Shown here in pieces: positions 3,229 to 46,465 of a stretch of 64,000 nt of DNA. The DNA is from Halosimplex litoreum (lineage in GTDB: Archaea; Halobacteriota; Halobacteria; Halobacteriales; Haloarculaceae). The position numbers and the translations under genes were made by a program. Positions within the stretch are counted from its first letter, which is position 1, and each line of letters starts with the position of its first letter. The notes below the pieces were generated by a model. The model worked only from the letters and a program-made list of their open reading frames with translations, did no database searches and was not told the origin of the DNA. The stretch is from positions 1,239,836 to 1,303,835 of the forward strand of contig NZ_CP065856.1 of NCBI RefSeq assembly GCF_016065055.1, read 5' to 3'.

Positions 3229-6195
3229 GTGACGGGCAACGGGTCGCAGCCGGAGACGGGTGAACGGGACCGCCAGGGGTACGCGGTCGACGCCGCGAGC
3301 GAACGAGCGACACTCGACGCCGTCGCGAGCGCGACCGGGGCGGGCGTCGTCGTCGTCGAAGACGAGCGTATCTCGTTCGCGAACGCGAGCGTCGAGCGAT
3401 ACCTCGGGCGCGAACCGGGCGAGCTGACCGGCGCCCCCGTCGAGTCGGTCCTGCCCGACCGCGGGGTCGAGGCGGTCGCGACGGTCGCCGACGGTGACGC
3501 CGAGCGGACGGTCGCGTGGCGCCCGCCGGGGGCGAACGGGAACGACAGCGCCGACGCGAACACCGCCGCGGTCGGCGACGTCGGCGACGCGGACGGGACT
3601 ACCGGCGCGGTCGGCGGTGGTGTCGTCGCGACGGTCAGCCCCGCCGACGGCGAGCGAGTCGTCGTGACGCTCACCCGAGGCGGCCGGGGCGGAGAGTGGC
3701 CGTCCGACGACGGCGTCGCCCGCGTCGCGCTCGACGCCGACGCCCGAATCTCCGACTGGAGCGCGGGCGCCGAGGCACTCACGGGGTGGTCGGCCGCCGA
3801 AGCCGTCGGCGCGGACCTGTCGCTTCTGTACCCCGACGACGCCGTGGCCGACCCCGAGGAGACGCTCGCCAGCGCGCCCAACGGGGGAACGGGCGAGACG
3901 GAGGGGTGGCGACTGCGCCGCGACGGGAGCGAGTTCTGGGCGAGCGTCTCGGTCACCCCGCGGCGGGACGCAAGCGGTGGTATCGCGGGGTTCGACCTGC
4001 GGCTGCGCGACCGAACCGACCGCAAGCGCCTGGCCGACGAGCGCGAGTTGCTGGCGGCGGTCAACCACGCGATCGCCGACGCCGACGGCTTCCGCGAGGG
4101 CGTCGAGACGACCCTCGAAGCCGTGTGTGCGCACACCCAGTGGGCCTACGGCGAGGCGTGGGTCCCGGCCGACGACGGCGACTACCTCGAACACCTGGTC
4201 GGCCACGCCGAGTCGGAGCGACTCGCGCCGTTCCTGCGGACCAGCCGCTCGGTCACGTTCCCCTTCGAGGCGGGACTACCCGGCCGGGTCTGGGCGAGCG
4301 CCAGCTCGGAGTGGATCCCCGACGCCGCCGCCGAGTCGGCGTCGGTGTTCCACCGGACGGCGATGGCCGAGGAGGTCGGCCTCCAGGCGGCGCTCGGCGT
4401 CCCGATCGAGACCGAGGACGGCGTCGTGGCCGTGTTGACGTTCTGCCTCCGGGAACGGCGGGCCGCCGACGAGGAACTGGTCGAGGCCGTCACCGACGTG
4501 GCCGCCGATCTGGGCGCACTGATGGCGAGCAAGCGCGCCGAAGAGGACTTGCGCACCTTCCGGAAGGCCGTCGAGCAGGCCGGCCACTCCGTCTACGTCA
4601 CCGACACCGACGGTACCATCGAGTACGTCAACCCAACCTTCGAGCGAGTGACGGGCTACCCCGCCGCGGAGGCGGTCGGCGCCGACCCCTCGATCCTCAA
4701 CTCGGGCGAGCACGACGACGGCTTCTTCGTCGACCTCTGGGAGACGATCCTCGACGGCGAGATCTGGACCGACGAGGTGTACAATCGCCGTAGGTCCGGC
4801 GAGGTCTACGTCGTCAACCAGACGATCGCACCGATCGTCGACGGCTCGGGCGACATCGAACGGTTCGTCGCCATCAACGACGAGATCACCGACCAGAAGC
4901 GCCGCGAGCGCGAGCTACGCAGCCAGCGCAACTCCCTGCGGCGGATCAAACAGATCATCGAGAGTCTGCGCCCGATCAACCGTGAACTCGCGCGCGCCGA
5001 CACCCGCGAAGCCGTCGACCGCGGCGCCTGCGAGGGGCTGGCCGCGTCGGAGGCGTACCTCGCGGCGTGGATCGGCGACTACAACGCGGCGGCCGACGAG
5101 ATCGCACCCCGCGGGTGGGCCGGCGTCGAGGACGACTTCGTCGAGGGGCTCGACCTCGGACTGGGCGGCGATCCCGACGGAGGAGTGGGGGGCGACGGGG
5201 TCGAGAAGGGAGGTGTGGACGACCTCTACCGCCGCGCGGTCGCCGACGGCGAGGTCCAGGCCGTACGGGACCTCACGACGGCGCCGACCGGCGGTCCGCG
5301 CCGCGAGCGCGCGCTGTCCCACGGGTTCCAGTCCCAGGCGGTGGTCCCCGCGGTCTACGGGGAGTCCGTGCTCGGGGTGCTCACCGTCTACTCGGCGCGG
5401 CCCGACGCCTTCGACGAGTACGAGCGGGGACTGCTGGCCGAGCTCGGCGAGCGGGTCGGCCACGCCATCAACGCCGCCGAGAACCGCCAGCTGCTCCACA
5501 CCGACACCGTCGTCGAGCTGGAGTTCGCGGTCGGCGCCCGGGACTCACCGACCGCCGCTGTCGCGGGCGAGCTGGACTGTCGGCTCTCGCTGAACGGCGT
5601 CGCACCGGCCGCCGCGGGGCACGTCGCCTACGTCGCCGTCGACGGCGCCCGGCCCGAACCGGTCGCCGAGGCGCTCGCCGAGCGCGACGACGTGGCCGGG
5701 GCCAGGGTCGTCGAAGCCCACGGCGAGACGGGCGTCGTAGAGGTGACCGGCGGCGCCGACCCCGTCGCCGCCCTGGTCGAGCACGGGGCGACCGTCCGCA
5801 CCTTCGAGACGACCGGCGAGGTCGCGACGGTCCGCTGTGAGATCGCGCCCCGCTCGGACGTCGAGTCGCTCATCACCGCGGTCGAGGCCGCCGGTGAGGA
5901 CACAGTCTTCACCGCCAAACGGACCCGCGACCGGAACGTGCGGACCGTCGAACTGACTCGCACCGCCGTCGAGGAACAGCTGACCGACCGCCAGCGAGAG
6001 GCGCTCGCGCTCGCGTACCACGCCGGTTTCTTCGCCTCACCGCGCCACTCCACCGGCGAGGAACTCGCCGACGTGCTCGACATCGCCTCGCCGACCTTCT
6101 ACCGCCACGTCCGCGAGGGCACCCGGAAGATCCTCGAACTCCTCGTCGACGCCGAGGACGCCCCGCCCACAGATGCAAACTTTTCTCGACACTAG
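3229..6195 (+). CDS. Multi-PAS/GAF sensor-regulator with HTH_10 (bacterioopsin-activator-like) domain
   Basis: This soluble 988-residue protein has, in order: a weak PAS (about 20-75), a PAS (165-265, ending in the C-cap DRTDRKRL), a GAF (270-440), a PAS (450-565; VYVTDTDGTIEYVNPTFERV and C-cap EITDQKRRER), a second GAF (585-760), a bacterioopsin-activator linker domain (770-920) and a C-terminal HTH_10 (LTDRQREALALAYHAGFF, then a STGEELADVLDIASPTFYRH recognition segment). There is no kinase or receiver, so signal sensing and DNA binding are on one chain, as in Bat of Halobacterium. The frame runs back to a TTG at 3199, but the GTG at 3229 is the better start because AT-rich promoter-like sequence lies just before it. 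The stop codon lies inside the first of two CTAGTCGACTAG palindromes. Signal and targets are unknown; it need not regulate bacterioopsin. Confidence 0.85.
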   Translation: MTGNGSQPETGERDRQGYAVDAASERATLDAVASATGAGVVVVEDERISFANASVERYLGREPGELTGAPVESVLPDRGVEAVATVADGDAERTVAWRPPGANGNDSADANTAAVGDVGDADGTTGAVGGGVVATVSPADGERVVVTLTRGGRGGEWPSDDGVARVALDADARISDWSAGAEALTGWSAAEAVGADLSLLYPDDAVADPEETLASAPNGGTGETEGWRLRRDGSEFWASVSVTPRRDASGGIAGFDLRLRDRTDRKRLADERELLAAVNHAIADADGFREGVETTLEAVCAHTQWAYGEAWVPADDGDYLEHLVGHAESERLAPFLRTSRSVTFPFEAGLPGRVWASASSEWIPDAAAESASVFHRTAMAEEVGLQAALGVPIETEDGVVAVLTFCLRERRAADEELVEAVTDVAADLGALMASKRAEEDLRTFRKAVEQAGHSVYVTDTDGTIEYVNPTFERVTGYPAAEAVGADPSILNSGEHDDGFFVDLWETILDGEIWTDEVYNRRRSGEVYVVNQTIAPIVDGSGDIERFVAINDEITDQKRRERELRSQRNSLRRIKQIIESLRPINRELARADTREAVDRGACEGLAASEAYLAAWIGDYNAAADEIAPRGWAGVEDDFVEGLDLGLGGDPDGGVGGDGVEKGGVDDLYRRAVADGEVQAVRDLTTAPTGGPRRERALSHGFQSQAVVPAVYGESVLGVLTVYSARPDAFDEYERGLLAELGERVGHAINAAENRQLLHTDTVVELEFAVGARDSPTAAVAGELDCRLSLNGVAPAAAGHVAYVAVDGARPEPVAEALAERDDVAGARVVEAHGETGVVEVTGGADPVAALVEHGATVRTFETTGEVATVRCEIAPRSDVESLITAVEAAGEDTVFTAKRTRDRNVRTVELTRTAVEEQLTDRQREALALAYHAGFFASPRHSTGEELADVLDIASPTFYRHVREGTRKILELLVDAEDAPPTDANFSRH

Positions 6196-15113: not shown

Positions 15114-15926
15114 ATGTCCGACGACCACTACGACGCCCTCGCCGACGACTGGCACGACTACGCCGAGGCGCCGTGGCGCGCCCAGATACTCTGGCCCACC
15201 ATCGACGAACTGCTGCCCAACCTCGACGGCCGTCGCGTGCTCGACGCGGGCTGTGGCGACGGCACCCACGCGGCCGCGCTCGCCGACCGCGGCGCCGACG
15301 TGGTCGGCGTCGACGCGAGCGACGGAATGATCGACACTGCGCGCGAGCGCTACGGCGACCGCGACCGCGTCGAGTTTCACCGCGCCGACCTCGCCGAGGG
15401 CCTCGACTCCCTCGCCGACGACGACTTCGACCTCGTCCTCTGCCAGCACGTGCTCTCGCACGTCCCCGACCTCGAAGCGGTCGCCGCGGCGTTCGCCCGC
15501 CTCGTCCGCCCCGGCGGCTCGGTCGTCCTGTCGACCCACCACCCGTTCCACGAGTACCTCGTCGTCCGTGAGGAGTCCTACCCCGACACCCGAGCCATCG
15601 ACGGCCTCGACGCTCGCCCGGCCGTCGATGCCGACGCCGACTCGCATCCACCGACGTACGCCGACACCGAGCGCTACGATCTCTACTGGGGCGGTGAGGT
15701 GCCCGAGAACGCGTCGGACGGACACGGCGGAGCGGATCCCACCACCTTCCACCGACGGCCGCTCGACGACCTCACCGGCCCGCTGTTCGACGCCGGCTTC
15801 GCGCTCAGCGGCCTGCGCGAGCCCGACCTGACCGAGCGGCTGGACGACGAACTGGCCGAAGCGGTGTCGACACTGCTCGACCGACCGCCGCGGTCGCTCT
15901 GTCTCCGGGCCGAACTGTCCGAGTAG
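15114..15926 (+). CDS. Class I SAM-dependent methyltransferase
   Basis: The 270-residue product shows the Rossmann-type SAM site: motif I VLDAGCGDGTHAAAL, the acidic end of strand 2 VVGVDASDGMIDTARE, and motif IV region DLVLCQHVLSHVPDLE. After the core (about 35-150) comes an FHRRPLDDLTGPLFDAGF segment typical of small-molecule methyltransferases in this family. Substrate cannot be inferred from the fold. It is flanked by a lipoprotein gene and the first structured intergenic repeat, so context gives no help. Confidence 0.85.
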   Translation: MSDDHYDALADDWHDYAEAPWRAQILWPTIDELLPNLDGRRVLDAGCGDGTHAAALADRGADVVGVDASDGMIDTARERYGDRDRVEFHRADLAEGLDSLADDDFDLVLCQHVLSHVPDLEAVAAAFARLVRPGGSVVLSTHHPFHEYLVVREESYPDTRAIDGLDARPAVDADADSHPPTYADTERYDLYWGGEVPENASDGHGGADPTTFHRRPLDDLTGPLFDAGFALSGLREPDLTERLDDELAEAVSTLLDRPPRSLCLRAELSE

Positions 15927-15939
15927 TCTCCCGTTCGCC

Positions 15940-16300
15940 CTCGACCCGCTCGCGGTCGCTCAGGCGACTGCACGAGCGCGAGCGCGCCTCGCCCGTTCAG
16001 TCCACCAGGAGAGCAAGCTCTCCTGAGCCCTCGTTCGCTCCGCTCACGAGGACGTCAGGACCGCGACCGTCCCGCACAGCACCACAGACGCCCTCACACC
16101 TCCCCAGCCGCTTGCGCTTCTCGCAAGCTGCAATGCTCATCCCTCGCGCGACGCTGTCGCGCCACGAGAGTCGCGACAGCGCGCGCCGACCGCTACCGCA
16201 CCCGCACCCGCACCGCACCCGCACCGCACCCGCACCGTACCCACACCGCTACCGCACCCGCACCGTACCCACACCGCTACCGCACCTGCACCGCACGGTA
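15940..16300 (-). repeat. Structured intergenic repeat element, copy 1
   Basis: This 490-base gene-free gap carries, in minus-strand order: a GCGGT-rich tandem array (16189-16296), a long hairpin with arms CTGTCGCG/CGCGACAG, the block GCGCGAGGGATGAGC, a block GCGGCTGGGGAGG, two further hairpins (CCTCGT/ACGAGG; GGAGAGCTTGCTCTCC) and GGACTGAACGGGCGAGGCGC. The same blocks in the same order occur in copies 2 and 3. No plausible protein is encoded. The remaining bases to 16418 hold only the upstream region of the ABC gene. Confidence 0.8.
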
Positions 16301-16418: not shown

Positions 16419-17228
16419 ATGGTCCCTGAACGTCCCCCAGACGGCCCTGCGATCGAGACGAACGAGTTGACGAAACGGTTCGGCGACGTGCTCGCGGTCG
16501 ACGGCCTCGACCTGTCGATCGAGCAGGGCGAGGTGTACGGCTTCCTCGGGCCGAACGGCTCCGGGAAGACGACGACGATGCGGATGCTGACGACGCTCAC
16601 CCGACCCACGAGCGGGTCGGCCCGCGTGATGGGCGTCGACGTGACCGACCGGCGAGAGCTGATCTCCGTCGTGGGCTACCTCCCCGAGGAGCCGCCGCTG
16701 TTCGACGAGCTGACCGCCCGCGAGCAGCTACGTCACGTCGCCGCCCTCCACGACCTGCCCCGCGAGCGAGCCCGCGACCGCATCGACCGCTACCTCGACC
16801 GCTTCTCGCTGGCCGAGGAAGCCGACCGCCGGCTCGAAGGTTTCTCGACGGGGATGCGAAAGAAAGTCGGCCTGATCGCGACGGTACTGCACGAACCGCC
16901 CGTGCTCTTTCTCGACGAGCCGACTAACGGGCTGGACCCGCGAGCCGCCCGCACCGTCAAGGACCTCATCGCCGAGCTTTCGGGCGGGGAGACGACCGTC
17001 TTCCTCTCGACGCACATCTTGCCGGTGGTCGACGAGCTCTCCGACAGGGTCGGGGTGCTCCATCACGGTGACCTGGTCGCCGAGGGTGCGCCCGACGGGC
17101 TCAAACAGCGCGCCGAGCGCGGCCAAGCCGGGTCGCTGGAGGACGTGTTCCTCGAAGTGACGACCGACCATAGCGAAGGGGCGACCGCCCCGGAAGCGAG
17201 CACGACGACGCCGGACTCCCAGCCATGA
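16419..17228 (+). CDS. ABC transporter ATP-binding protein
   Basis: The 269-residue product has Walker A (GPNGSGKTTT), Q-loop region, the signature-like LEGFSTGMRKKVG, Walker B (VLFLDEPTNGLDP) and the switch His (LSTHILPVVDEL). This is the exporter-type DrrA/CcmA subgroup. The C-terminal 40 residues are polar. It overlaps the permease gene by four bases (ATGA), so the two form an export pump. Substrate is not evident. Confidence 0.9.
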   Translation: MVPERPPDGPAIETNELTKRFGDVLAVDGLDLSIEQGEVYGFLGPNGSGKTTTMRMLTTLTRPTSGSARVMGVDVTDRRELISVVGYLPEEPPLFDELTAREQLRHVAALHDLPRERARDRIDRYLDRFSLAEEADRRLEGFSTGMRKKVGLIATVLHEPPVLFLDEPTNGLDPRAARTVKDLIAELSGGETTVFLSTHILPVVDELSDRVGVLHHGDLVAEGAPDGLKQRAERGQAGSLEDVFLEVTTDHSEGATAPEASTTTPDSQP

Positions 17229-41246: not shown

Positions 41247-41317
41247 ACCGTTTCCGACCCGATTCCCCACCGAGAACGGTCGGTCCGCTCCTTCTCGAAG
41301 TCTCGACCTCGCCCGTC

Positions 41318-41823
41318 GGTGAGCGGCGCGGTTGCGGTGAGCGGCGCGGTTGCGGTGAGCGGCGCGGTTGGCGCGTGCTGTCGAGCGGTGCGAGGTCGAC
41401 CGGAGGGAGACCTCGATGCGAACGGGGAGCGAAGCGACCCGTGAGCGTGCCCGCCTCCCGGCGGGCCGCTCGAAACAGTCGCGCGAGGGATGAGCGAGTG
41501 AGTGGAGCGAACGAGCGAATCGGTTGGGGAGGCGTGAGGCCGTCTGCGGTGCTGTGCGGGTGCGGTCTGGTGGACTGAACGGGCGAGGCGCGCGTGGCGG
41601 CGAAGCCGCCACGGCTTGCGGCGGTCGGCGGAGCCGACCGCCCTGCTCGCGCTCGTTCAGTCGTCTGAGTCGGCACTATCCGCGCGGACGGTGCGGAGAG
41701 CGCGGATATCCGACTCAGCGAGCGCGAGCGGGGCGAGGGCGTTCGTCGCCTGCCGTCGAGTGCGGTACCGATTACTGCTAGCGAGCGCGCCGAGGGCGTT
41801 CGTCGCCTGCCGTCGAGTGCGGT
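41318..41823 (+). repeat. Structured intergenic repeat element, copy 2
   Basis: In plus-strand order: three 18-bp units GGTGAGCGGCGCGGTTGC (41318-41371), a long hairpin with arms CTGTCGAGCGG and CCGCTCGAAACAG, GCGCGAGGGATGAGCG, TCGGTTGGGGAGGCGTGAGG, GGACTGAACGGGCGAGGCGC, hairpins GTGGCGGC/GCCGCCAC and GCGGTCGGC/GCCGACCGC, a block GAGTCGGCACTATCCGCGCGG, then a 33-base block ending GTCGAGTGCGGT repeated at 41734-41766 and 41791-41823. Same blocks and order as copies 1 and 3. No credible gene. Confidence 0.85.
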
Positions 41824-41882
41824 CCATACGCGAACGTCGTCGACCGACGCGCCTATGCGGCCGCGGTGTCGAACGAACCTCA

Positions 41883-45758: not shown

Positions 45759-45829
45759 CGGTGGCGGGAACTGTCAGCCGAAGTTTATAAATGTCGGCCA
45801 CCGGGGCGGCAGTGGTCAGTAGAGGTGAT

Positions 45830-46381
45830 AGAGTGAGCGATTGCGGTTGGCGCGCGCTGTCGAGCGTGCCGAACGACAGTGAGGCCGCGAGTCGAAGCCG
45901 TGCGAGGGATGAGCGAACGAGCGCAGGCGCGTAGCGGTGCGGTCGGCGCGTGCTGTCGCGCGCTTTCATGCGCGCGACGGCACCGCGCGAGGGATGAGCG
46001 ACGACAGGAGCGAATCGGCTGGGGAGGCTCGTGGTTGTCTGCGGTCGCTGGCGCGGTACGGTGGCGGTCGCTGGCGCGGTACGGTGGCGGTGCTGTGCGG
46101 TTGCGGTCCCTGGCGTCTCGGCGAACGGAGTGAGCCGAGGCTCGGAAGACGAACGCAGTGAGTCTTCCGGCGGACTGAACGGGCGAGGTGCGCGTGGCGG
46201 CGTAGCCGCCACGGACTGTGGCGGTCGGCGGAGCCGACCGCCCGCTCGCGCTTGTACAGTCGCCTGAGCGGGCACTATCCGCGCGGTGCGAGGCGCGCAG
46301 CGCCTCGACACGCGAACGGCGACCGAAGGGAGCCGTGAGCGAGCGCGCCGAGGGCTTTCACCGCCTGTTGTCGAGTGCGGT
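45830..46381 (+). repeat. Structured intergenic repeat element, copy 3
   Basis: The element has two 5' modules, each with GGCGCGCGCTGTCG- or GGCGCGTGCTGTCG-type hairpin start and ending GCGAGGGATGAGCGA, then TCGGCTGGGGAGG, a 23-bp tandem GCGGTCGCTGGCGCGGTACG (46041-46063, 46064-46086), hairpins GAAGAC/GTCTTC with loop GAACGCAGTGA, GGACTGAACGGGCGAGG, GTGGCGGC/GCCGCCAC, GCGGTCGGC/GCCGACCGC, a block CACTATCCGCGCGG and an end block GTCGAGTGCGGT. It separates paralogue B from the HTH_10 gene. No credible gene in it. Confidence 0.85.
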
Positions 46382-46465
46382 CGCTGTCGATCGACTTCCT
46401 TTCACAACTCATCCACCAGAAACCACTACTCGACTAGCACATCGAACCGAACGACGGACGACGAC

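Follow-up and report, generated by a model that had tools for sequence, protein, structure and literature searches.

A dispersed intergenic element of Halobacteriales with strand-specific hairpin covariation and conserved tandem G·A pairs

We analyzed a 64,000-nt stretch of the Halosimplex litoreum genome (contig NZ_CP065856.1, positions 1,239,836 to 1,303,835; hereafter the window), which contains three copies of a hairpin-rich element. Copy 1 is flanked by a methyltransferase-like ORF that ends at 15926 and by an ABC-transporter-ATPase-like ORF that starts at 16419, and self-comparison of the window placed copies 2 and 3 both on the minus strand. The features of the three copies are as follows, with window coordinates and strands.

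15931..16194, plus strand: copy 1, truncated at both ends, beginning a few bases past the stop codon of the methyltransferase-like ORF
15988..16001, plus strand: copy 1, conserved block CTCGCCCGTTCAGT, the 3' arm of the long-range stem P1
16006..16025, plus strand: copy 1, optional hairpin GGAGAGC-AA-GCTCTCC
16029..16051, minus strand: copy 1, optional hairpin whose minus-strand loop is the 11-nt GAGCGGAGCGA
16099..16150, minus strand: copy 1, variable slot between CCTCCCCAGCCG and CTCATCCCTCGCGCG, containing ATGAGCATTGCAGCTTGCGAGAAGCGCAAG, which comes close to class 2
16150..16187, minus strand: copy 1, long hairpin of domain C, CTGTCGCG/CGCGACAG
41316..41830 (approximate limits), minus strand: copy 2, whose 5' end carries tandem units
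41370..41481, minus strand: copy 2, domain C with extra inserted hairpins, containing CTGTCGAGCGG/CCGCTCGAAACAG
41480..41532, plus strand: copy 2, variable slot of class 1, ATGAGCGAGTGAGTGGAGCGAACGAGCGAAT (window plus strand being the element minus strand)
41593..41643, plus strand: copy 2, a pair of optional hairpins, GTGGCGGC-GAA and GGCGGTCGGC-GGA, each with a GNA triloop when read on the element minus strand
41658..41720, minus strand: copy 2, domain A stems P4/P5, CTGAGTCGG/CCGACTCAG and ATATCC/GGATAG
45816..46453, minus strand: copy 3, complete at both ends, 5' CGTTCGGTTCGATGTGC.. and 3' ..CACCTCTACTGA
45945..45984, minus strand: copy 3, domain C long hairpin GTCGCGCG/CGCGCGAC
45984..46027, plus strand: copy 3, variable slot ATGAGCGACGACAGGAGCGAAT
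46117..46169, plus strand: copy 3, a pair of optional hairpins whose loops, read on the element minus strand, are GAACGGAGTGA and GAACGCAGTGA

Every hairpin quoted in a preliminary description of this DNA was located in the window sequence, including GTGGCGGC/GCCGCCAC, common to copies 2 and 3, and GAAGAC/GTCTTC, found at 46143-46169 in copy 3. The short hairpins had been described as alternatives at one position, which is incorrect: they belong to two slots on either side of a block, CTCGCCCGTTCAGTC, and all are optional inserts, the GTGGCGGC and GGCGGTCGG hairpins lying before the block and the GGAGAGC and GAAGAC hairpins after it. Simple repeats of the ACCGCACCCGC type occupy 16189-16300, after copy 1, where the 3' end of the element is missing.

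The element is a dispersed repeat family. Defining a copy by the anchor CTCGCCC[G/T]TTCAGTC (small variants allowed) followed by CTCCCCA, we found at least 64 copies in the 4.16-Mb genome, and the second anchor (CTCCCCA) alone at two further sites. Copies with both ends identified are 369-720 bp long and share common termini, (C/T)G(T/A)TC(G/A)GTTCG..TGTGCGAGTTGAG at the 5' end (identified at 37 ends) and CGCTCACTCYATCACCTGTACTGA at the 3' end (31 ends). Between copies that are 93-97% identical, the similarity breaks off abruptly at unrelated flanks; for example, the copies at 85660 and 3658032 are 97.5% identical over 485 bp, and those at 1117682 and 3170500 are 95.0% identical over 642 bp, each pair within unrelated flanking DNA. 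We also searched seven other Halosimplex species with the joined flanks of three copies. The site of copy 3074696 was empty in one species, the site of copy 2220431 was empty in several, and the site of copy 1286022 was occupied in one; the boundaries of the empty sites are not base-exact because the intergenic DNA has diverged. Near-identical copies in unrelated flanks, together with orthologous sites that lack the element, indicate that the element is mobile.

All 64 copies are intergenic: a home-made gene predictor called no gene that overlaps any of them. Their orientation to neighboring genes is near random, with 20 convergent, 18 and 14 co-directional and 12 divergent arrangements. Where the gene upstream is divergent, about 11 copies have their 5' end some 47-55 bp away from the start codon of that gene, a spacing that would place them just upstream of a promoter.

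We next consider the stems, whose sequences change between copies while their pairing is kept. In domain A, 93.7% of the cells for 37 pairs of the long arm are paired across 33 copies from the same genome, compared to 27-46% when the arms are slid by 1-3 columns, and double-sided changes occur at 13 pairs in 50 cells, compared to 5.6 and 11.2 after shuffling. One of these stems reads CTGAGCGGG/CCCGCTCAG, CTGAGTCGG/CCGACTCAG, CTACGCGAC/GTCGCGTAG or CTGCGGCGG/CCGCCGCAG in different copies, and the long-range stem changes from TGAAAG/CTTTCA to TGAACG/CGTTCA. In the long hairpin of domain C, which carries additional inserted hairpins in some copies, arms pair better with their own partners than with the arms of other copies, both in this genome (mean score of 7.68 vs 5.55, with a permuted maximum of 6.32) and in other genera (7.37 vs 4.80, with a permuted maximum of 5.36), in permutations that, here and below, ignore the relatedness between copies. 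Further copies with unpaired arms would have spoken against the preliminary description; instead, the domain C arms favor their own partners.

Covariation is also found in the variable slot, which is bounded by CCTCCCCARCCG and CCCTCGC. Read on the element minus strand, the slot of many copies obeys the rule AT(GA NN)n GNA (N'N' GA)n AT, with lengths of 15, 23, 31 or 39 nt, where the fixed G and A letters pair with each other as tandem G·A pairs that alternate with steps of two Watson-Crick pairs (NN). In the 31-nt form of class 1, Watson-Crick pairs fill 289 of the 330 variable cells, compared to 156 when permuted (maximum 189), while the G·A cells are kept in 321 of 330 cases and replaced by Watson-Crick pairs in only three. 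In the class 2 form, GAGxAyCGCA..GAGx'Ay'CGCA, the positions x:y' and y:x' are paired in 62/62 cells, compared to 18.9 when permuted.

As the most independent test, we searched with a pattern in which the G·A frame, the GNA loop and the AT ends are the only fixed positions and every NN is open. Of 392 haloarchaeal genomes, 83 matched, spread over 24 of 95 genera, and of 124 genomes from other orders of the phylum none did; the reversed control gave no matches. Among the matches listed, 123 are distinct, and their NN cells are Watson-Crick in 631 of 738 cases, compared to 347.9 when permuted (sd 12.7, maximum 397). The pattern also matched seven times in viral contigs: two contigs of low GC (L232 at 5158-5188 and L237 at 5507-5537, with a composition that is not haloarchaeal) score 6/6 for NN pairing, one match scores 5/6, and the remainder are chance-like.

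Four results agree and point to the GA-carrying strand, which is the element minus strand, as the one that carries the fold. First, among the NN deviations from Watson-Crick pairing, read on this strand, G·T is found 62 times and A·C 16 times. Second, hairpins with the loop GANCGNAGN'GA and arms of at least 5 fall inside the three copies in all six cases in the window, well beyond chance, and over the copies of the whole genome these 11-nt loops are found 58 times on the element minus strand, once on the plus strand and never in the flanks. Third, GNA triloops occur 37 times on the minus strand and 6 times on the plus strand. Fourth, all 24 cores examined fold more stably on the GA-carrying strand with both RNA and DNA parameters, although the z-scores are alike for the two strands (about -2.5). 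The preliminary description had read changing arms with kept pairing as a signature of selection on structure, and the covariation across the genome and the order, the conserved G·A positions and the strand bias all bear this out. Its suggestion that the variable arms could be specificity tags is not supported: many copies share identical hairpins, which come and go as modules, nothing ties the arms to targets, neither a target nor a partner gene was found, and the orientation to neighboring genes is near random.

We lean toward the reading that the family is a non-autonomous, mobile, non-coding and intergenic element of Halobacteriales, whose spread and upkeep depend on the fold of one strand and not on the sequence of its stems. 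One strand would fold into several hairpins in a branched arrangement and would be used in single-stranded form, most likely as single-stranded DNA exposed during replication or transposition. A host or transposon protein acting in trans may then recognize the folded strand by reading its shape. The letters of the stems could drift because only the pairing and the G·A/GNA framework would be read. In DNA, C-GNA-G triloops and tandem G·A pairs are both known to be stable; the latter are also a known stable motif of RNA, where they are common.

The leading alternative is that the minus strand encodes a structured non-coding RNA family, whose copies spread via recombination or retro-mobilization. 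With Turner RNA parameters, energy minimization of the minus strand gives the alternating 2-bp/tandem-GA hairpin, lacking the outermost AU pairs, in six of six slots tested, and never does so for the plus strand. The G·A-rich slot hairpins are not predicted with DNA folding parameters, so the structural argument rests on covariation. That the slot hairpin is predicted by RNA and not by DNA parameters favors an RNA reading of the slot, and both the tolerance of G·U over A·C (62:16) and the frequency of tandem G·A pairs in RNA are consistent with it. Against an RNA stands the scarcity of A/T runs of at least 6, as needed by a TATA box: 26 of 28 elements have none and 2 have one, which amounts to 0.21 per kb compared to 1.31 in the flanks, and makes an internal TATA-like promoter unlikely. 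The near-random orientation to neighboring genes implies that read-through would not be constant, the optional hairpins are gained and lost, and no RNA family matched: a search of Rfam 15 returned no family above its gathering threshold, the best chance match being BTH_s1 (14.9 bits vs the 74 needed). We consider a non-coding RNA rather unlikely. A broader proposal, which we advance only tentatively, is that these repeats form a class of Halobacteriales mobile elements whose identity is a single-strand fold, built of tandem G·A pairs in alternation with 2-bp steps whose letters are free as long as they pair, closed by a GNA triloop and growing by one unit per arm, and which is either read by a protein through its shape or acts as an RNA.

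Against the preferred reading of a mobile element recognized by its single-strand fold, our searches turned up no mobilizing protein. The element-type 3' pattern occurs only at the copies and at site 363016, where it adjoins a degenerate match to the anchor; no transposase was found beside such a 3' end at any other site. The genome has one Y1 and four TnpB genes, none of them near the copies, and none of the 202 element loci has TnpA or TnpB. A link to IS605/TnpB was rejected, as no such gene lies near the copies and the element cores are absent from 29 TnpB loci. Terminal inverted repeats look good by eye and fail against shuffled sequences (score of 5.96 vs 5.10, sd 1.22), with only TCRGT..ACYGA apparent. 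Inspection of 28 copies by eye showed no target duplication. Phage records gave no match, which led us to reject a phage origin; a search of plasmids gave six short matches.

On our best reading, the nearest known kinds are palindrome-associated transposable elements (PATEs), MITEs and REP/BIMEs. PATEs are found in Haloquadratum and other haloarchaea (PMC3119063), and one example is 489 bp long (PMC10544981). Like them, our element is non-coding, too short for a transposase, near that example in size, palindromic, and present as heterogeneous haloarchaeal copies without clear terminal inverted repeats or target duplications. In contrast, the near-terminal palindromes of PATEs resemble IS605-type ends, and the descriptions of PATEs thereby set apart our element, for which no IS605 relation was found and which is filled throughout by palindromes that have tandem G·A steps and whose arms covary. 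As with MITEs, the copies are short, non-autonomous and dispersed, but they lack clear terminal inverted repeats and target duplications, and no parent transposon was found; MITEs without target duplication do exist. By analogy, the element may work like others that are recognized as a folded single strand. The bottom strand of the integron attC site is one such case, recognized as a single-stranded DNA hairpin (PMC6393395); attC shares with our element the use of one folded strand as a working analogy only, and their structures differ.

REP/BIMEs, which are associated with RAYT transposases, suggest a second alternative, whereby the element is a chromosomal repeat retained because a nucleoid or topology protein binds its hairpins. 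It is likewise an intergenic mosaic of optional hairpins in many copies, and its 5' ends, where they face a divergent gene, often lie about 52 bp from the start codon. However, at 369-720 bp it is about ten times the size of one REP (REP palindromes are 20-40 bp), no RAYT-type partner lies near the copies (the sole Y1 gene is elsewhere), and its stems vary freely. The strand-specific loop and the G·T bias would be unexpected for a double-stranded binding site, copy numbers vary greatly by genus, and the motif was not seen in most of the haloarchaeal genomes searched; we judge such retention decidedly improbable. Weakest is the proposal that template switching keeps the arms complementary by mutation alone, without selection, which is very improbable and largely refuted by the conserved mismatches, since switching would erase the tandem G·A pairs that persist and predicts neither the 58:1 strand bias of the loops nor the preference for G·T over A·C. 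Such switching, a purely mutational source of pairing, does appear to act at times: in copy 72587 (L022), the normally mismatched internal loop between P1 and P2 has been rewritten to a near-perfect palindrome of about 25 bp, with one arm altered to match the other.

What makes the element unusual is that comparing sequences was enough to yield a detailed folding rule, its key non-canonical pairs and the strand that carries them. It poses the testable question of what moves or reads such an element, of which the shape of one strand is all that is known. For haloarchaeal genomics, it provides a definable repeat family that is absent from Rfam, and no description of it was found in the open-access literature searched.

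Two other repeats accompany some copies. Tandem arrays of 57-bp units (CTTGAAACGGATCGACCTCACGCGACAGCAAGCGACGAAAGCCCTCGACGCGCTCG), varying in number, lie 5' of some copies (L050 and L048, upstream of the core; also 691964-692151); a CRISPR was rejected for these arrays, as the entire unit is conserved. A second repeat, GCATCCGCGCG..hairpin..TTTTTCACCCATGTTTTT..long hairpin..AAAAAGATGGT, often adjoins the 3' end of the element (L054, L053, L050 and L048), and it has the GA-N-C-GNA-G-N'-GA loop on the opposite strand.
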